Below, piece by piece: positions 7,489 to 57,200 of a stretch of 64,000 bases of DNA; position 1 is the first letter of the stretch, and each line of letters starts with the position of its first letter. Source of the DNA: Epichloe hybrida. Its lineage: Eukaryota; Ascomycota; Sordariomycetes; Hypocreales; Clavicipitaceae. The DNA lies in NCBI GenBank assembly GCA_019022495.1, contig JAFEKR010000034.1, positions 557,763-621,762 on the forward strand. The letters are read 5' to 3'. The notes below the pieces were generated by a model. It worked only from the letters and a program-made list of their open reading frames with translations, was not told the DNA's origin and did not search any database. Both the position numbers and the translations under genes were made by a program.

Positions 7489-10204
7489 CTAAGCGCGTCT
7501 GTCTTCTGCCCCCCTGGTGATGCTCTCCATCAACAACTCGGAGAGCTGCTTCACGCTCTCCTCGGACGTGACTTGGCTGGCCATGACATACAAAACATTC
7601 CCTAGCACCCGACTGTGTACGTTCCACGGGCCGCTCTCGCCGCCCGTCCTTCCTGCGTTCAATCTCTCCCGCAGACCGAGAGCAGCGTTGCTGCTGTACC
7701 CCGAGCCGGCCGAGTCCCTCAGATGAATGGCCAGCACGCTGCCCAACGCCCACGTGCCAATCACGCCATCTGTCAGCCGGGACAAGCTTTCCACAAGTTC
7801 GCGCGGCCACGTGGACCACACGTCGACTTTGTGCTCCGGCGACTGTCCGTCCGACCCCTTCCATCCCCGTGCCTGAGCCCAGTCCCATGCGCCCCTTTCT
7901 TCCATGCCTTGCATCTCTTTTACGGACTCCAGGGCCACTTGACACCCGACCGGGTGCGCCGTGTAACTGTGCCCGTGGAGCAGCGCATCCGTCTTGTCGG
8001 GACTGAGGAAGATCTTGAAGATGTTTTCCGAGGCGAGGGTTGTGCAAAGCGGCACGAGACCGCCTGTGAGAAGCTTGGCGTGGACGGAAATGTCAGGATG
8101 AACGCCCAGGAACGAGGAGGGCGTAAAGCGTCCAAGGCGATAGAGGCCCGTGAAGACTTCGTCAAAGATGACGGGGAGGCCTGACCATTCATTGGGGTCG
8201 TCTGCGGAAGTGGGCTGTGTCGCGGTGCCGAAGAGATGGGGGCATCTGCGGACGACGTTCACTAGGGTGCGTTGGAAGAGGGGGTCGCTACGGGTGAGCG
8301 GAAAAGCTTTGTTAGTAACCTTTGATAATAAATGACAATGGCGGTATGAGGCAAGTCAAGAAAGGGTGTAGAAAGGATGCACTAACACAAACTCCATGCC
8401 GCCTGCACCGAGAATGATTGGCTCTAGCATCAGGGCGCCGAACTTGCGGCCCTGGGCTCTGAGGGTTTCCAGCGTCGAGGTTATGTAATCTTCGTACATG
8501 ACATGCTCTCCTGACGCCTCACGGGCCTCGACATCGAATATGTCATTCAAGGTGGCATAGGCTCGCCCGGAACCAAAGCTCTCCTTGAGGCTATCCGCCA
8601 CTGTAACGCTCCATTCGCCATTTCTGCAGAGCACGGTGGGATAATCCAACCAGTAGCCTTTCCCTTCGTACCACTCGATTTTCTCGTTGTAGATGCCCGG
8701 CTCGGCGCAGTCCATGGCGCCCATGGTGTCTCCATGATATGCACCTTTGAGCCCCAGAATGCCTAGTTTCTGGTCCGTGTCCCAGTCATAGCGCATTCGA
8801 GCTGCGCGAAGTCCCATCTTGACAGCGACTTCTGTGCCGGTACTGCCATTGTCGGAGTAGAACACGCGGCTCAGACGGGGATTCTGCATGCCCTTGAGGA
8901 GCGTCTCGGCGAGAGCCATGGCAGGCTGGTGGATGGCCGAAGCGAACATGACATGACCGTACCTGCCGGCGGCATAGGCAGCTGCAAGAGTGAGCTTTGG
9001 GTTAGAGTGGCCTAGTCCTTGGGTCCACCACGAAGCAGAAGCATCGAATGATGATCGCAACACCGGTGCTTCAGCGGAAGTGTTGTTGCCCTGGGCTGAC
9101 GGCGCGAGTGTTTGAAAGTAGTCACCGTGTGCAGAGTCGATTGTCATGATTTCCTTCGGACCAACCAGGCTTTGTTGTGTGAAGGGGTACCAGATGTGCT
9201 GGCTTGCCTTGGTAGCCATTGAGTCCAATGCGGACAGGCGGTTACTGTGGTTCACATGCAACAATTCCAAAACTTGTCTCGTGATCTCCTCACAATCCTT
9301 TCGCTCGTAGTATTTCTGCATGGCTTCCTCGTCCCTTTGCGGACTTTCATCGCGCTTGGGTGGCACAGATAGACTGCTCACGGGGATGTCGTAGTTGTCC
9401 TTGAAATATTCGGCCAGATACCGATAGTTCTCGTACGTGCTGTCCTTGAAGAGCAACACTGATTCGACATCATAGCCGCGGATCCGGAGGGACTCGAACG
9501 CAGATATCGTCTGCGAGATGCCGCCCAGGCGGGAATCACCCACAAGCAATGTTGGCGCACGTAGTGGTATATACAAATCAGCTTGGGTCTTGCCCGATGG
9601 TCCAGGGGAGTGGACGCCGCCGGCTGTCTCCATGAACAGCCAGCCATTGTCCTTGGCAGCGCACTGGGTGGCGAAGGCGCGGCATTTGGCTAGGAGAGCC
9701 TCGTCAGATGGAATGGGCTGCCCGGGACAGCATTAGTTCAGCCCGTGTTCAGCGAAGTTATCTCATTGGATTGGTCAAGCCGACGACGTACTCTGCCCGA
9801 AACCAGAGCTGCAGTGTGCGGGCTGCACGGGATGTCATACTGATAAAGTGTGCGGCGAGATACACCAGGTGCGAAGCGAGCTATGTGTCTGCTCATGATA
9901 TCATTAGACAAGATCCGAAGACCTTCACACCGGGTGGTTTTTTATCAAATCATCTGTGTCAGTTCGTTAGTTGGAGTTTTCCCAAATGACATGGATATGA
10001 GAACGACTCACACCGATCATCAGCTTCATCTCCTGCACCTGTCGACACAGGCTTCAAGAAAGTGACGTGCTCATCCTTCCACTGTTTCTTTGCGGTTCTG
10101 GCCAACAATGTCGTGAAGATGGTCTTGCCAACATCCGTATTCGCCCCGAACACTTGATACACGCGAATCGAGCGCCACAGCAGCGAGGCCAACGGCGACT
10201 TCAT
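7489..10204 (-). CDS. bioDA: Bifunctional dethiobiotin synthase / DAPA aminotransferase
   Basis: Four exons on the minus strand: 10204-10014, 9888-9792, 9717-8387, 8287-7489; about 805 residues. The N-terminal half is dethiobiotin synthetase: P-loop GANTDVGKT at residues 20-28, KPVSTGA, HIARFAPGV, SPHTAAL and METAGGVHSP, using ATP and CO2 to close the ureido ring. From about residue 262 comes 7,8-diaminopelargonate aminotransferase (class III, PLP): IWYPFTQQ, DNGSTGTEVAVKM, GAYHGDTMGAMD, IFDEVFTGLYRLG and the PLP lysine in HAKLLTGG near residue 611. The fusion is the normal fungal arrangement (Aspergillus biA type). The small second exon was placed from phase and family residues. It is divergent from bioF with 620 bp between starts. 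Mitochondrial location is known for plant and fungal relatives, but no obvious presequence is seen. Confidence 0.95.
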
Positions 10205-10824
10205 CGCGGTTCAACGTTGTGAGCGTCGATGCCAACCGATCATCTCCGATCATCTCAAACGCGGTGTCGAACAAAACCGGCGTTGCTGGCGTGTTTTGTG
10301 GTGTTTGGTTGGGTCCACAGACGAGTGGATAAGTGGAACTCGGAGGAGCCCACCAGTTGACCACCTGCAGGCTGCCTGCCAGCTGAGGCCAGCCGGCCGC
10401 GGGTCTTATTTATTCGTCTTCGGCTAAACATGGCTGGCCCGCCCGGCTGGCCCCATGCCACGGGCAATTTCGAATTCCCCACGGCCCAGACTTTCATGGC
10501 AAACATGGCCGAGCAACCTGGAACAGCGGCGCTTCACCAGATTCAAGAGGATGTGCATGCGCCAGACAGCATCAAATCGTGAGGCGCACGCAGTGTCCAT
10601 GCTCCGCAGACTCCATAATAATTCGCCGTCGACCTCTCATCCAAGCCAGAGAGAGCCAACAAGGGGGCCATGCTAGCACCGCAACTCGTTGAGCGGAAAT
10701 CCAGGCCTACAGTACTCACAGTTGTACTCTCTCATACGCCTTCTTGCTCCTCCTCGTTCCATCGTACTGCTCTACCCAGCCGCTCTCCGGCCCTGGAAAT
10801 GAGCCAATCGACTCCGTCTGCATC
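10205..10824. promoter_or_regulatory. Shared divergent promoter region of bioDA and bioF
   Basis: These 620 bp separate the two ATG codons of the divergently read biotin genes, so any promoter elements must lie here and co-regulation is plausible. No specific operator or TATA box is called. Confidence 0.5.
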
Positions 10825-12279
10825 ATGACCAACTCCGAGAGCGCCCTGGACAAGACCTACGGCTCCCTGCTCGCCCGCCGAGAGCGCCACAACCGCCTGC
10901 GCAGACTCACCCTCCGCGACGCCGGCATTGTCGACTTCTCATCCAACGGCTACTTATCCCTCTCTGATCACCCCGACATACAATCTCGGTACATCTCGCT
11001 TCTCCAGAGCTCCAGCTCCCAAGGTGGTTTCGCATTGGGATCGTGCGGCTCACGCCTCCTGGACGGCAACACGGTCCTGGCAGAGACGTTGGAATCCAGC
11101 ATCGCGGCCTTTCACGGCGCGCCAGCCGCTCTGCTGTTCAACTCCGGGTTCGAGGCCAACACGGGACTGTTTGGTTGCGCCCCGCAGCCCGGTGACGTGG
11201 TGGTCCACGATGAGCTGGTCCATGCTAGTGTTCACGATGGGATGAGATTGAGCAGAGCAAGGACGCTCCCATTCGCACACAATTGCGTCAAAGGTGCTGA
11301 TGTGCCGACGGGGTCTACACTGCAGAGTCTAGGAGAGGTGCTGGAGGGGTTGAGGAGGGGAAAAGACGGCGATGAAGTAGCTCGTGGAGTGAAAAACATC
11401 TTCATTGCCGTGGAGGCGGTGTACAGCATGGACGGGGACGTCGCTCCGCTGCGAAGCATCGTCGACTGTGTGGAGAGTCATCTTCCCCGAAAGAACGGCT
11501 ACATCATCGTGGACGAGGCTCACTCCACGGGCTGGCTGGGAGAACAGGGGCGCGGTCTAGTGAGTCAGTTGGGACTCGAAGATCAGGTGTGGGCTCGCGT
11601 ACACACGTTCGGCAAGGCCATGGGCTGTGCGGGAGGTAAGCTACAAACCATCTGTTCGGAGATGCATGATCGCTCGAGGATGATGCATCCCGGATGCTAA
11701 CTGGCGCTGACAATAGCTGCTGTGCTGTGTTCTCCCACCACTCGATCGTACTTGATCAATTATGCACGCAGCCTTATATACACCACGGCCATGGGTTTCC
11801 CCATGCTCGCGGCCATTCAGACCGTCTACGACTACCTCGGAACAGGCAACGGTGCTCCGCTCTTCAAGAGCTTGATGTCGCTCCTGGAAGAAACACATCA
11901 ATTGCTCGCGGCTCTATCGGAAAAGCACAATCCACCACCGCAATTATTTCGCGTCAATGCTGCGCCGCCTGAATCACCCATCATTCCTCTATTTTCAGCT
12001 CGTGCGAGGAGCCTGGCCACGCACTGCCAGAGACGCGGATACATGGTTCGGCCCATTGTGGCTCCAACTGTGCCTGAGGGGACGGACAGGGTGAGGCTTT
12101 GCCTCCATGCTGCGAACACAGTCGCCGAGGTGCGAGGGCTTTGTCTGGCAATTGAGGAGTGGCTTCAGAGCCAACTTGACGGTGATTCGGCCACGAGGTT
12201 TGAACAAATGCCGCAGGAGCCGACTGTGACTCCAGCGAAAATTGGAGAGGCCCCCATAAGCATTTTGAGTAAATTATAG
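10825..12279 (+). CDS. bioF: 8-amino-7-oxononanoate (KAPA) synthase, peroxisomal type
   Basis: Two exons, 10825-11635 and 11717-12279; about 457 residues. The frame is open further upstream, but the first ATG that gives the family N-terminus is at 10825. It belongs to the alpha-oxoamine synthases (PLP fold type I): VDFSSNGYLSLSDHP, LGSCGSRLLDGN, NSGFEANTG, HELVHASVHDG, VDEAHSTGWLG, and the PLP lysine in HTFGKAMG near residue 264. It condenses a pimeloyl thioester with alanine to KAPA, the first committed biotin step. The protein ends in SKL, a canonical type 1 peroxisomal signal; published work in Aspergillus places BioF in peroxisomes, so the C-terminus fits. It is divergent from bioDA and convergent with bioB (114 bp between stops). 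Confidence 0.95.
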
Positions 12280-12393
12280 AATAGACGATGATTCCAACTG
12301 TTTTCCTTTTCTTTCCATCTTTTTCTCCATTGAACATGAAACCATGCCGTAGGTCCAGCGTGTTTTTGTTTCCAATTGTTATACCTTGATTGC

Positions 12394-13766
12394 TTACACC
12401 CTGGCGGCATCAACATCTCCTGCACCCACAACGGCTTTCTTGCCAAAGCTTTTCATCGGTGATAAGCCCCATCGCCCAAACATGGCGCTATCCTCGTCCC
12501 ATCCATTGCAATCCGTTGTCAACATCTTCTCGCCTGTGAAGATGGCGTTTGCGCCTGCCATGAAGCACAACGCCTGCTTTTCTTCCGACATGCTTTTCCT
12601 TCCTGCAGCAATTCGAATAATGGTCGTAGGCATGATGAGTCGCGCCGTCGCAATCGTTCTCAGCATGCTCGTAAAGGCAATGGGCGTGGTGTCTCCCAGT
12701 GGCGTTCCCTTGATAGGCACCAAGGCATTGACGGGGAAACTCTCTGGATGAGATGGCAGCGTAGAGACGGTATGAAGAAGGCCCACCCGATCCTCTGATG
12801 ACTCGCCCAAACCCAAGATGCCACCAGAGCACACGTTGATGCCTGCATCACGAACGTGGCTCAAGGTCTTGAGGCGTTCATCGTAGGATCGCGTTGTAAT
12901 GACATTGGGATAAAATTCCCGACTCGTGTCAACATTGTGGTTGTAGGCCGTCAGTCCAGCCTCCTTGAGCTGCTTGGCTTGCTCGTTATCAATCATTCCC
13001 AACGTCACGCACACCTCCATGCCCATGGCCTTGACGCCCTTGACCATTTCAGTGATGTTCTTCAAGCTGTTCTTGCGACCGCGCATGTCTCTCCATGCAG
13101 CGCCCATGCAGAAACGAGTGCTTCCATTTTCCTTGGCCGTCTTCGCAGCCGCCAGGACAGACTCAACTGTCTCGACTCGCTTGGCTTCCAGACCTGTGCC
13201 TTTCTGGTAGCGGGTGGCTTGGGCGCAGTAGGAGCAGTCTTCGGTACATCCGCCGGTCTTGATATTCATGAGAGTACAGAGTTGGACTTCGCCGGGGGCG
13301 TGATATCGACGGTGAACCAAGTTCTAGGAATTGATGTCGTGTTAGTTCAGACTTGTACGGTCGGTCGGTTCTCTGTACCGTCAATCCAAGCGTCGTCTTG
13401 CAGAGGTGGGGCTGTCGTCCCGAGTTGGCTTACAGCTTGATGCGCCAGTTCCAGCAATGGCTGATAATAAATGGCAGAGATTTCTTCTCTCGTCCAATTC
13501 TGTCGAGGACCTGTAGCAGACACGGCGTCTTTCAAGATTTTGGCCGCATCTGCCTGTTTGGCCGAGTTCTCGACTACTTGAGGTTGGTCATGCGTAGCCG
13601 TGGGCGTGTCCACGAGTGTGGCGCCAGTGCGAGCTATGGACTGGAAAGAAGGGCGAGAGATGGTCTTTGCTGCCGTCCAAGGTGCTTGAAAAATAGCTGT
13701 CGATGGTGTTTTGTGGCCAGCCGATCGAAACGACCCAAGGCCGTTGGTGACAAACGACCAACGCAT
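12394..13766 (-). CDS. bioB: Biotin synthase (radical SAM)
   Basis: Two exons on the minus strand, 13766-13434 and 13323-12394; about 420 residues. The radical-SAM motif is C137-x3-C141-x2-C144 (CTEDCSYC), which binds the [4Fe-4S] cluster; FCMGAAWRDMRGR, VCVTLGM, NVCSGGILGLGE and IIRIAAGR supply the Cys/Cys/Cys/Arg ligands of the second, sulfur-donating cluster. It inserts sulfur into dethiobiotin. The first 40 or so residues are rich in Arg, Ser and Thr and lack acidic residues, as expected for a mitochondrial presequence. The start at 13766 is the ATG heading this leader; the frame is open further upstream without family similarity. The intron 13433-13324 joins LLELAHQA to NLVHRRYHAPGEVQLC in phase 0. 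The third gene of the biotin cluster. Confidence 0.95.
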
Positions 13767-52796: not shown

Positions 52797-53023
52797 TAGT
52801 AAGGAAGGATACTAGTTATCTAAGCACCCTGAAGAGGACTATAAGAAGGCGTTTTAACGCTTTAAGAATCACTACCTTATGGATTTAACTAATAACTTAT
52901 ATTATTCATTTCTTACTTGGTATAAGGGAGAACACAAGTCCTAACCCCCTGTTAATAACAAAATCGCTTAGTATATGAAGAGCATTGGATTTGATAATAG
53001 CCCTAACGATATAGATAGGCTAG

Positions 53024-53345
53024 TGTTAAAATATATAAGGCTTTGTAATCCTAGGTTCAGTCGGATCGGTCCACTCTTTTGATTTCAACAGGTTATGAGC
53101 CCGGTGGCGCAGTGGTTGTGGCTTACTGTAGCGTATTAGCCCGCCCACCACAGTGGAGCACTGCTCTGCGAGGCAAGGTTATGGGTTCGAACCCTGCCGA
53201 AAAACAACTAAAGAGATTCAATTGCTAGTATAAGCCTAACCTCCAATAGGGCACCTAGATATACAATTCCAGGGGGAGTGTTAAAATATATAAGGCTTTG
53301 TAATCCTAGGTTCAGTCGGATCGGTCCACTCTTTTGATTTCAACA
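53024..53345 (+). mobile_element. TRIM-like miniature LTR retrotransposon with internal Pol III promoter boxes, 322 bp
   Basis: Two identical 67-bp LTRs (53024-53090, 53279-53345) run from TG to CA and are flanked by GCTAG (53019-53023 and 53346-53350). Directly after the left LTR is GGTTATGAGCCC (53091-53102), complementary to the anticodon arm of initiator tRNA-Met, as in copia/Ty5-type half-tRNA priming. AGGGGGAG (53271-53278) abuts the right LTR as polypurine tract. The 188-bp interior has a tRNA-type A box TGGCGCAGTGG (53105-53115) and B box GGTTCGAACCC (53184-53194) and no coding capacity. It is GC-rich with no RIP signs, unlike all surrounding DNA, so it arrived late. It must rely on another element's proteins. 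Confidence 0.88.
53098..53204 (+). other. tRNA-like segment with A and B boxes (not a functional tRNA)
   Basis: The A and B boxes have the tRNA spacing order but are 68 nt apart, wider than in an intronless tRNA. The seven bases before the A box and those after the T arm do not pair into an acceptor stem, so no tRNA can fold. It is best read as a tRNA-derived Pol III promoter. The first TTTT downstream lies in the right LTR (about 53,331-53,334) and could end a Pol III transcript there. Confidence 0.7.
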
Positions 53346-53707
53346 GCTAGTACCTACGAGCTTCTTCACTTACAGAACCTAGATTAATAGCGAAAGAATA
53401 GTTTAATTCCTAATAAGGTAAGTAGCTTATTATAGTCTAAGCAAAGAAAACCCCTTTTAGTAGGAACTTATAAATAAAGCCCTAGCGATGTTTATATTAG
53501 AAGATTGCTATTCCTATGTAATATTCCAAGGGATTATGCCTAACACAGGAGCTGTAAAGTTCTCTATAGCAGGGCACCCTTAATTTCTTGCTTTATAATA
53601 TTAGATGCCTATATTACAGCTTAATAAATTAACAGAGAAGAAGGCATTAGTTAGATTTAGCGCGGGAGACCTGATTATTACGCTTGGAGCGGCTAATGTG
53701 CCTACTC

Positions 53708-54219
53708 CCTTTAGAAATATTCTCTTTTAGGTTATCCCTATAAACACTCTATTTCTTTTATCCCTTAATAATATAGACTATCTAAAGATTAATTTTAATA
53801 TCTCTGAGAACACGCTATAATAAGGAAATATTAAAGTCCCTATTATATATAAATAGGGCTATGCCTAGATGCTTCTTATATAGAAAGAAGAAGCAGTTGC
53901 TTAGAGCTACCTTATAGAAGGCAAGCTATAGCGATTACATCGCTGCTTTAGATATTTATTAATCCTTTAGAAATATTCTCTTTTAGGTTATCCCTATAAA
54001 CACTCTATTTCTTTTATCCCTTAATAATATAGACTATCTAAAGATTAATTTTAATATCTCTGAGAACACGCTATAATAAGGAAATATTAAAGTCCCTATT
54101 ATATATAAATAGGGCTATGCCTAGATGCTTCTTATATAGAAAGAAGAAGCAGTTGCTTAGAGCTACCTTATAGAAGGCAAGCTATAGCGATTACATCGCT
54201 GCTTTAGATATTTATTAAT
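53708..54219 (+). repeat. 256-bp perfect tandem duplication in copia 2
   Basis: Units 53708-53963 and 53964-54219 appear identical. As the copia sequence is mutated in the same way in both, the duplication postdates RIP or the copies were kept alike. 256 is not a multiple of three, so it also shifts the frame. Confidence 0.88.
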
Positions 54220-57200
54220 CTGATGTTTACACGAGGTTCTTTGTAAATTAAGGCATAACGTTAATATTAAAGCTATTAGGGAGCTGATAAGAATTTACTA
54301 CTAATGCTAAATGCATGTAAATAGCCCTAATTACTTTAAGTTTACCCTTAAGAATAAGTGTAGCTTTAATTATAAAGTAATAGTAAATGTCTTCTACCTA
54401 GATAGTAACTACCTTACACTTTATGCTATAGATATAGCTATAGCGTTTAATGTAGTAAAATTCCTTAATAATATCTCTATAAAAATAACCTAGGAAGCCC
54501 TCTGAATATGCTAGATTAATACTTACCTAGGCCCCCTAGACTTTATTATTATAAATACTAGAACGAACTTCTATAGTAATAAATTTAGATAATTCATAGC
54601 TTTAATATTAATTTTAATTAAGGAAGTCCCTATTAAGGCATACTATAGCATAGGGAAGGTTAAAAGGTATTATAGGCTGCTCTAAAGAGCCTATAATATA
54701 ATTAGACGTAAATGCCCTATAACGCTAGAACCTATTGCCCTTTAAATAGTAATTAAGGCCCTAAATAACACCATAAGCCCTAATAGCCTTATCCTAACCC
54801 TCCTTATCTTTAGAGCCTACCTATATATAACAAATAAGTCCCTGCTATTACCTAATATTATATAGCGTGTAATTATAGTATAGAAGGCTACTAAAGAGAT
54901 TAAGAGACTTTATACTATCTAGAAGGTTAATAAAGCCCTTACTAAACATAATAGCCTAGATACCTTAAAGACCCTTAGCCTGCCGCTTAGATTAAAGGTT
55001 AAGGTCTAGTAAGAAAGCAAGGGATAGGTAAGTCTATATAAGCTACTAGTAATTACTAGAGAAAGCTATATACTTAATATACCTAGAGGCCTAAAGACCT
55101 TTAGGTTAATATCTATTAAGCCCTACTATAATAACCCTAGTGCGGAGAAGATAGCAGAGCCTAGTAAAGAGGAAGGAGAAAAAGGGCGAGAGGCCTATAA
55201 TAAGAATATAGTACTACTAATACTACTAAAGCAAGGACGCGGAAGGCCATAGAAGAACCCTCCTATAATGCCTTAAGGTGCTAATACCTTCCTATTAGTA
55301 AAAGAATATAGTAACCTAGCTCTTGTAATTAAGCTACGTAAGGAAGGAATTATTAAGACCCCTAGCAAACCTTTTAAGCTATTAATAAAAGCGGAAATTA
55401 ATACCCTAATTAAGTAAGGTGTATTTAAATTTATTATATTTAATAAGGAAGAATATGGTGGAATTCGAATCTTTAATTCCTAAATTATTAATAAGATTAA
55501 AGGTAAGATAACAAAACCCTACAAAAAGTCACGCCTTGTAATCTAAGGGTGTGAGGATAAAGGGAAACAGGCTATTCTTACATAGGCCCTAATAATTCAA
55601 CGCGCGAGCTAACATCTTATCCTCGCGATAGCCCTATTAGTAAGATTAAGGAAATTCCTTATCTAGCTAAGAGATATCTGTTAGGCTTATGTACAGGCCT
55701 ATATATTACTAGAGTGGCTAATCCTAGCGCGCTTGCTAATTTAGATATAGTATCTTTACCCGCCTAGTATGATCTTAAGGGTTATAAAACCCCTTTATAG
55801 GCTTGTAAAGGTAGGAATATACTAGTAGGTTATATATTATAAGTATTATAGAGAGAACCTCTAGATAGAAACCTTTATATATAATCCCTACCTGCTTATA
55901 ACTATAAAGGAAAGCCCTAACTTTACCTATATTAGAATATAGACTAATAACATAATTAGCCTCTTAGATAAGAAGTTCTCTAAGAAGGAAGAGACCTAGC
56001 TTACTATAGTAGGCTTTAATGTAAAGCTAAAGTAATTCCTAACTTAGGACTGCCCTCTTATATTCAATAGTAGTATTATCTTACTAGAGAATAATACTAT
56101 TAAGATCTAGCAGAAAGGGCAGAGTAATAAGTTAGAGTTAGTTCTAATAACTAACTTAAAGCGTAAATACATTAAGCAGAGAGCCTAAGGCGCTTATATT
56201 ACCTTAATCTACTAACTAGAGGCTTGCTTTAACCTATCTATTACTACATAACACTAGGAGCTAACCCTAGAGGATATGAAAGCCCTTAATTACTGCCTAA
56301 AGTAGTAGATAAATTACCTAGAGAGAGGTCTAACGTTTATCCTAATTAACCTTAAGAAGATAAAGCTCTTTACCTTTATAAATAAATCCTTTACTAATAA
56401 CTAGGACCTATCCTTATAACTAGGATATGTACTTATCCTAGCGAACGAAGACTACACTAATAGTAAGTTTATAATTAAAGGTAATATTATGCACTTTAGC
56501 TTAATAAAGAGCAAAAGAGTTATATAAAGCATGCTTGCCTTAGAAGTCTATAGCATAGTAGCTAGTGTTAATATAGCTTACGTAATTACAACCACCCTGA
56601 ACTTAGTTACTAACTAACTAAAGCTCCTAAAGATCCTAGTTATTATATATATAGATTTATACTCCTTATATAAGTGCCTTATTAAGCTTAGTATAATAAA
56701 GGAGAAACGCCTAATGATTAATATTATAGCCCTTTAATAGTTATATAAACACTAAGAACTTTATAAGATTTAATGGATTAACAGAGAGAATAACCTAGCT
56801 AATGCCTTTATAAAGGTATTACCTAATAAAGCCCTTAAGAGCTTTATCTTAACTAACTAAATAACTATCTAGATAGAGGGATAGGTTACCTACACGTAAC
56901 ACACGCGTAGTAAGAGAAAAAGATAATTCTCTAGGAGAATAGCTATAGGGATAAGATAGTAATACATAAGGGATTTACGCCCCTGTAGTTAATATCCCTA
57001 GCGGCTATAACTACGCTAGCCTACTAGGCCCTCCTAGTAGACTATAGAAATTAATAGTAGTATATAAGAGGATAAAGGTATTACTAAGGAGGAGAAAGAT
57101 ATTATATACACGCTACGGTGTAGTATATATGTTATTTTAAGGAAAAGAAGGGATTTAAAAGGACTTACTTATCCTTATATAAGCTTATAGGCTAAGCGAG

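Follow-up and report, generated by a model that had tools for sequence, protein, structure and literature searches.

A TRIM with interior tRNA-type promoter boxes in Epichloe hybrida and its apparent exchange of left LTRs with a copia-like element

A short element flanked by identical LTRs lies in the genome of the ascomycete Epichloe hybrida and raises two questions: what kind of element is it, and by which machinery could a sequence with an interior of 188 bp, too short for coding enzymes, be copied? We analysed it in its window, a stretch of 64,000 nucleotides (C85:557763-621762), and searched the assembly to which this stretch belongs (79.9 Mb, 156 contigs). Window positions 53024-53345 are an intact TRIM and represent a single insertion of a family of non-coding LTR retrotransposons that occurs in many copies. 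The 322-bp element combines the features by which a TRIM is recognized, namely a length below 1 kb, two LTRs, a primer site, a purine tract and no coding capacity.

The anatomy (Table 1) bears out most of what the original prediction had read from the letters: identical 67-bp LTRs with TG..CA ends, the 5-bp duplication GCTAG, a polypurine tract touching the right LTR, and A and B boxes in the 188-bp interior are all present. The site complementary to the tRNA-Met anticodon arm, which had been given as 12 nt long, exists as well and extends over 14 nt; 0.01 matches at ≤1 mismatch would be expected in the window by chance. The corresponding host tRNA-Met(CAT) is presumably the initiator, since it resembles a fungal initiator pattern with 2 mismatches, and the TRIM would be primed by one half of this tRNA. 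An 81-bp long form of the LTR also exists (L091 25-105 and 6587-6667), in which a partial repeat of the initial bases comes first (TGTTAAAATATAT-TGTTAAAA...).

Table 1. Features of the TRIM (window positions) and chimeric insertions resolved at both ends (loci). TSD, target-site duplication.
Feature	Position or locus	Strand	Remark
Left TSD GCTAG	53019-53023	.	Joined flanks continuous in 40/40 scored related repeats (365 candidates)
Left LTR (LTR_A), 67 bp, TGTTAAAA...TTTCAACA	53024-53090	+	TG..CA ends
Possible TATA box TATATAAG within left LTR	53032-53039	+	TATATAAGG in 44/44 distinct fetched LTR sequences
TTTT of left LTR	53077-53080	+	CTCTTTTGA in 41/44 distinct fetched LTR sequences
Primer-binding site GGTTATGAGCCCGG, 14 nt	53091-53104	+	Exact complement of host tRNA-Met(CAT) anticodon arm; swap point with copia
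A-box-like TGGCGCAGTGG	53105-53115	+	Interior, adjoins primer site
B-box-like GGTTCGAACCC	53184-53194	+	79 nt from A box, start to start
Short A run	53200-53204	+	Frequent insertion point among copies; 209 inserted letters just 5' of run in 59 rows
Polypurine tract AGGGGGAG	53271-53278	+	Identical in 59/59 aligned distinct interiors
Right LTR	53279-53345	+	Same sequence as left LTR; abuts purine tract
TTTT of right LTR	53332-53335	+	First four-T run 3' of B box; putative weak Pol III stop
Right TSD GCTAG	53346-53350	.	Matches left copy
Mismatched ends	L045		TSD ATCCT
Mismatched ends	L047		TSD GTTAT
Mismatched ends	L065		TSD ATTAC
Mismatched ends	C75		TSD ATTAC, different place from L065
Mismatched ends	C77		TSD CCTAT
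Mismatched ends	C80:1498		TSD AAAAG
Mismatched ends	L072		TSD GAACC, two TRIM units
Mismatched ends	C97		TSD GAAAG, with copia interior
Mismatched ends	C74=C83		TSD TATAC, long string
Mismatched ends	L032		TSD AGTAT, long string
Matched ends	L091		TSD AGGTT; TRIM LTR-copia-copia LTR-TRIM interior-TRIM LTR
Matched ends	C90		TSD GTTTT; TRIM LTR-copia-copia LTR-TRIM interior-TRIM LTR
Matched ends	C135		TSD TATAG; TRIM LTR-copia-copia LTR-TRIM interior-TRIM LTR
Matched ends	C80:779		TSD TTTAT; copia LTR-TRIM interior-TRIM LTR-copia-copia LTR
Matched ends	L031		TSD ATTCC; copia LTR-TRIM interior-TRIM LTR-copia-copia LTR, copia LTR partly deleted
No duplication	C113:11 kb = C1:3365 kb (duplicated locus)		GGGCT/ACTAT

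A search with the whole element gave at least 49 matches spanning at least 318 of its 322 bases (40 of 127 candidates scored), and pattern searches at ≤3 mismatches located 114 places with primer site and A box, marking interiors, and 211 with the LTR core. The loci that were fetched (L001-L091) comprise the best matches and pattern hits and are a non-random sample; 95 blocks were reduced to 53 distinct ones by removing duplicates with identical flanks. Among these, 30 are single elements, 8 are arrays in which two to four units have common LTRs, 4 are lone LTRs, and 11 have no TRIM LTR on one side. Perfect 5-bp TSDs flank 27 of the 30 single elements and all 8 tandem arrays, together 35/38 distinct fetched two-LTR insertions, and also three of the four lone LTRs, the fourth being the left LTR of L091. 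Of the three single elements that fail, two lie 3' of a TRIM purine tract and are hence parts of longer strings; the third has a cut LTR. The TSDs were scored with several alternative offsets for where the LTR starts and ends, and all successes used start offsets 0, 13 or 14, the short and long LTR forms.

Empty sites complete this picture. The joined flanks of the window element are spanned at 92-94% identity in all 40 scored places (365 candidates) and thus run through the insertion point, so that the element entered one copy of a high-copy repeat. In L003, a TRIM is inserted in a copia LTR with the TSD AAATC, and the same LTR is uninterrupted in L091 and L035. The family is multicopy and was retrotransposed with target duplications, a further defining property of TRIMs. 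The search for more copies that the original prediction had proposed yielded many, with distinct 5-bp duplications and with empty sites in the same genome, and none of the outcomes it had named as contrary (no copies, copies only within coding elements, plain tandem repeats) occurred.

The view of the element as a TRIM without LTR divergence agrees with this anatomy, the many copies, their distinct 5-bp duplications and the empty sites; the two LTRs of a single element differ from each other at 0-3 sites (24 pairs, including the duplicate loci L001/L002 and L007/L008). The 40 kb in which the element sits are AT-rich and RIP-like in their dinucleotide indices (TA/AT 1.63 and (CA+TG)/(AC+GT) 0.52 for 18-58 kb of the window), and the element's own values are 1.23 and 1.06. 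It had been called the only unmutated layer of its surroundings; their RIP-like character stands by these indices, but the element is not alone in being so well preserved, as L006, L023, L029 and L030 elsewhere also have identical LTRs. Across 60 distinct interiors we counted 413 substitutions, among them 170 C>T (110 before A) and 129 G>A (87 after T), the RIP context.

A second copy, 100% identical, was found on contig C77 (L002). We rejected it as an independent insertion since its flanks are those of the window copy: the 3.3 kb fetched are also identical except for one 256-bp repeat unit, which points to a duplicated or overlapping contig stretch. That unit forms a perfect tandem duplication near the element in the window (53708-54220) and is single on C77. 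Same-flank duplicated stretches were seen in L001/L002 and L007/L008, which were compared directly, and in C74/C83 and C113:11 kb/C1:3365 kb, for which the ends alone were compared; overlapping contigs, retained haplotypes and recent segmental duplication are candidate readings of them. Elsewhere in the window, at 7489-13323, open frames resemble a fungal biotin cluster: BioDA-like (two frames, 7489-9732), BioF-like (10693-11700) and BioB-like (12394-13323). A database search covered the 8356-9732 frame, and the other frames were named by eye; the closest among the at least 120 matches of the searched frame that were listed is from Conoideocrella luteorostrata (85%), and the named Metarhizium matches reach 77-79%, which suggests a hypocrealean host of the Clavicipitaceae.

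A partner for the TRIM is suggested by insertions that join it to a second family. In L091, a single TSD encloses a TRIM LTR, 5.5 kb of interior sequence in which some pieces resemble copia, an ~824-bp LTR, a TRIM interior and a TRIM LTR. The ~824-bp LTR starts with TGTTAAAAATAAG and is unlike the 67-bp TRIM LTR. In L035 and L003 it stands before this copia interior with no junction to a TRIM (TRIM-interrupted in the latter), and it is also found directly 3' of the copia purine tract. In a self-BLAST of L091, the two families matched at LTR end and primer site and nowhere else; the LTR tips TGTTAAAA and ATTTCAACA are common to both. Pfam detected Pol_BBD above the cutoff in helper pieces, and gag_pre-integrs, rve and SH3_retrovirus below it (gag_pre-integrs and rve at L091 2491-2883), while the reverse-transcriptase domain RVT_2 gave no match in the one helper copy fetched, the frames of which are broken and in which the order of RT and RNase H was read by eye. 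We use the label copia because of the weak matches to non-RT domains, this gene order read by eye and the primer type. A tandem repeat of ~80 bp lies just 3' of the helper's primer site (L091 160-401).

Exchanges between the two families are confined to the left side in the junctions that were read. Scored at ≤3 mismatches, left junctions comprise 81 of TRIM LTR with TRIM interior, 25 of copia LTR with TRIM interior and, among 127 copia starts, 21 of TRIM LTR with copia interior; since the patterns differ in length, these are counts and not rates, and the near-identical duplicated loci C74/C83 and C113/C1 inflate them slightly. Left-side classes at 4 mismatches were left out, as this setting does not separate the two LTR ends. 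On the right, 87 of 303 copia purine-tract junctions were seen letter by letter, and 86 continue into a copia LTR, one into an unclear variant (C35:730934) and none into a TRIM LTR. Among 62 TRIM interiors, 57 run into a TRIM LTR and none into a copia LTR, and the pattern left five unclassified, four of which have a TRIM LTR 3' in BLAST and one of which is truncated. No clean right-hand swap thus appeared among these 87/303 copia junctions and 62 TRIM interiors. In one place (L129, C68:856660-856790), a copia purine tract is followed by ~54 bp of copia-LTR start fused to a TRIM LTR and then by a TRIM interior, a rearranged LTR that a simple swap model does not predict.

Many of the chimeras are units flanked by 5-bp duplications. 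Sixteen of the 25 places with copia LTR and TRIM interior were resolved at both ends and represent 14 distinct loci, 13 with and one without a 5-bp duplication; including L031 and L032, which fall outside that pattern, the tally comes to 16 distinct loci with both ends resolved, 15 of which are flanked by a perfect 5-bp TSD. The remaining nine places, outside this count, are L077 (left end not found), C81, C135:1017, C128, C91, C13:840, L034, C35:1330 and C113:106. Ten distinct insertions have mismatched ends, with a copia LTR on the left, a TRIM LTR on the right and perfect TSDs, and seven of these have no copia interior (C75, C77 and C80:1498 judged by junction and spacing). For C75, C77, C80:1498, C97, C74/C83, C90, C135, C80:779 and L032, ends and junction patterns were read, and the middles follow from spacing and pattern places. 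The copia LTR is partly deleted in the chimeras L031 and L059.

In ordinary LTR replication, a single end of the template gives rise to both LTRs of the cDNA, and formation of the left one depends on pairing between plus-strand strong-stop DNA and the primer-site copy at the opposite end. We consider it likely, judging from these junctions, that the TRIM relies on a copia-type element in its own genome for copying in trans and that left LTRs are swapped during joint reverse transcription. TRIM RNA and copia RNA would be packaged in one particle and both be primed by half an initiator tRNA-Met, and the plus-strand strong-stop DNA of one element, comprising the LTR and a primer-site copy, would sometimes land on the primer site of the other. 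Such a jump via the identical primer site would exchange the left LTR and keep the right one, as observed, and integrase could accept both LTRs because their tips are common to both families. Strings of several units would arise through cDNA recombination at the same shared stretch of LTR end and primer site, and some could stem from genomic recombination without co-packaging. Mobilisation by a copia-type element, as originally predicted, appears plausible from the chimeric insertions with TSDs, which go beyond that claim in that they point to one copia family as the likely helper.

The chief rival places the exchange after integration: single-LTR circles or linear cDNA would recombine into resident copies of the other family at the shared stretch of LTR end and primer site, the resident TSD would be kept, and forms with mismatched ends would be later deletions. 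Such recombination accounts for the matched-end strings with TSDs (L091, C90, C135, L031 and C80:779) and for the tandem arrays, and it has a published precedent in Ty5, for which Ke and Voytas (1997, as listed in PMC11899658) reportedly described tandem elements formed through cDNA recombination. For each of the ten mismatched-end insertions with TSDs, however, it needs an extra precise deletion, for example across the 9-bp ATTTCAACA of the LTR ends. We regard this post-integration origin as rather unlikely. Finished cDNAs that recombine at the same 20-bp stretch probably had a share in forming the strings.

A separate question is which polymerase provides the genomic RNA. The original prediction saw the element as a TRIM/SINE hybrid, and the boxes themselves exceed chance: the window holds a single match to the A-gap-B pattern, which 0/100 shuffles reproduced, and the A- and B-box columns of 59 distinct interiors are 86-100% identical to the window copy. 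The interior lacks even a three-T run, a TTTT lies in the LTR, and an A run of variable length follows the B box, all of which would suit a Pol III transcript. A reading as a tRNA gene or tRNA fold was rejected, as ARAGORN found 0 tRNA genes in the window, Rfam matched nothing in 601 bases at E values up to 10, and folding revealed no tRNA-like structure (z-score -0.37; 65/200 shuffles equally stable). The element has the boxes only, and not the tRNA-related head expected of a SINE. Free SINE copies without LTRs did not emerge among the 81 of 86 box-B sites that could be placed by or inside TRIMs: 79 are no more than 130 bp away from the start of a listed TRIM interior (the list holding 100 of the 114 primer-site/A-box places and 8 from junction patterns), and of the other seven, one is in an array already read, one is between two LTR cores and five are outside those read. 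These results do not support the hybrid.

Conservation does not single out the boxes. Mean identity over the 59 interiors is 0.978 for the A box and 0.974 for the B box, compared with 0.983 for the primer site, 0.972 for positions 76-93 and 0.949 for the 3' part (~0.98 without columns 125 and 167, at which the window copy differs from most rows); the middle, positions 26-75, alone is clearly lower (0.893). We thus discarded selection on the boxes, whose conservation is inseparable from that of most other parts. Pol III usually starts 12-20 bp upstream of box A, which here would fall at the junction of LTR and primer site and would yield an RNA without the left LTR, lacking the 5' R region needed for LTR replication. 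Together with the missing tRNA fold and with box conservation that does not exceed that of the primer site, positions 76-93 or the 3' part, this makes it unlikely that a Pol III-transcribed TRIM/SINE hybrid generates its genomic RNA from the A and B boxes, although Pol III use of the TRIM as such is possible.

The TRIM promoter probably lies within the 67-bp LTR, since the presence of TATATAAGG in all 44 distinct fetched LTR sequences makes a start in the LTR more likely, whether Pol II or Pol III is used. In the Pol III case, the promoter would be split across the LTR boundary, with a start in the left LTR by TATATAAGG, recruitment of TFIIIC by the interior boxes and a stop at the TTTT of the right LTR, an arrangement that seems quite improbable to us. 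If true, start and stop would delimit a repeat of ~15-20 nt within the LTR, which would suffice for strand transfer, and copia reverse transcription could then be supplied with a Pol III transcript although the LTR has no boxes. Very improbable is an origin of the TRIM by internal deletion from a copia element that had these LTRs and the TRIM interior as its 3' end, which the order in L091 suggests at first glance (copia interior and complete TRIM interior between two TRIM LTRs, one TSD) and which we dropped because the stretch 5' of the TRIM interior is a complete foreign ~824-bp LTR that elsewhere flanks copia alone, the families within L091 matching at LTR end and primer site only.

Helenus (TRIMp3; Kojima 2024, PMC10886601) is likewise a short non-autonomous LTR element and has tRNA-type A and B boxes in its LTRs. 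The parts of that paper considered here describe fungal Helenus from Pucciniales and three Agaricomycetes, with 5-bp TSDs, mostly a primer site for the initiator tRNA-Met anticodon loop, and a proposed copia helper; in these parts, helpers are deduced from similarity of primer site and interior, not from chimeric insertions. Our TRIM shares the 5-bp TSD and the anticodon-loop primer site with fungal Helenus. It differs in that its boxes lie in the interior, whereas the tRNA-like part of Helenus lies in the LTRs, and in that its host, an ascomycete, is unlike those reported. The element is a genuine TRIM and, by the definition of Helenus, not one of that group. SMART elements (PMC10886601, same parts) resemble it in their length of ~300 bp and in LTRs that differ from those of the putative copia-type helper, but their interior is reported as highly identical to part of the helper, unlike the TRIM interior, which resembles its helper in the primer site only. 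Half-tRNA priming from an anticodon-region primer site, predicted for the TRIM, is also cited for Ty5 and Drosophila copia (PMC10886601, same parts), which are autonomous, unlike the TRIM.

Cassandra (PMC7215508) is also a TRIM with a Pol III-type promoter, putative in our element with its consensus boxes, and with tandem arrays that have common LTRs. In contrast to our element, it is a plant element with 5S rRNA sequence in its LTR, and the passages of that source considered here do not mention swaps with other families. Plant tandem LTR retrotransposons (PMC11899658) similarly form strings of units with common LTRs, and perfect 5-nt TSDs flank 10/28 clear rice tandems; the parts of that paper considered here deal with similar interiors and LTRs, set complex arrays aside and do not describe alternating strings of two families. 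The ascomycete copia groups GalEa and FunCo1, as covered in the sections of PMC5445492 considered here, have other primer arrangements than this helper. Among titles and abstract beginnings of the open-licence literature, we noticed no prior report of a TRIM with interior A and B boxes or of LTR swaps between TRIM and copia elements. Relative to Cassandra and Helenus, with boxes in their LTRs, the interior position of the tRNA-type boxes is unusual.

The position of these boxes outside the LTR makes the proposal of a Pol III drive testable, since Pol III transcription and LTR replication would conflict unless the start lies in the LTR. In the literature considered here, TRIM helpers elsewhere are deduced from sequence likeness; in Epichloe hybrida, natural chimeras with TSDs look like records of joint reverse transcription. 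They suggest that identity of the primer site, together with the LTR tips, may suffice for a partnership between a TRIM and a copia element.
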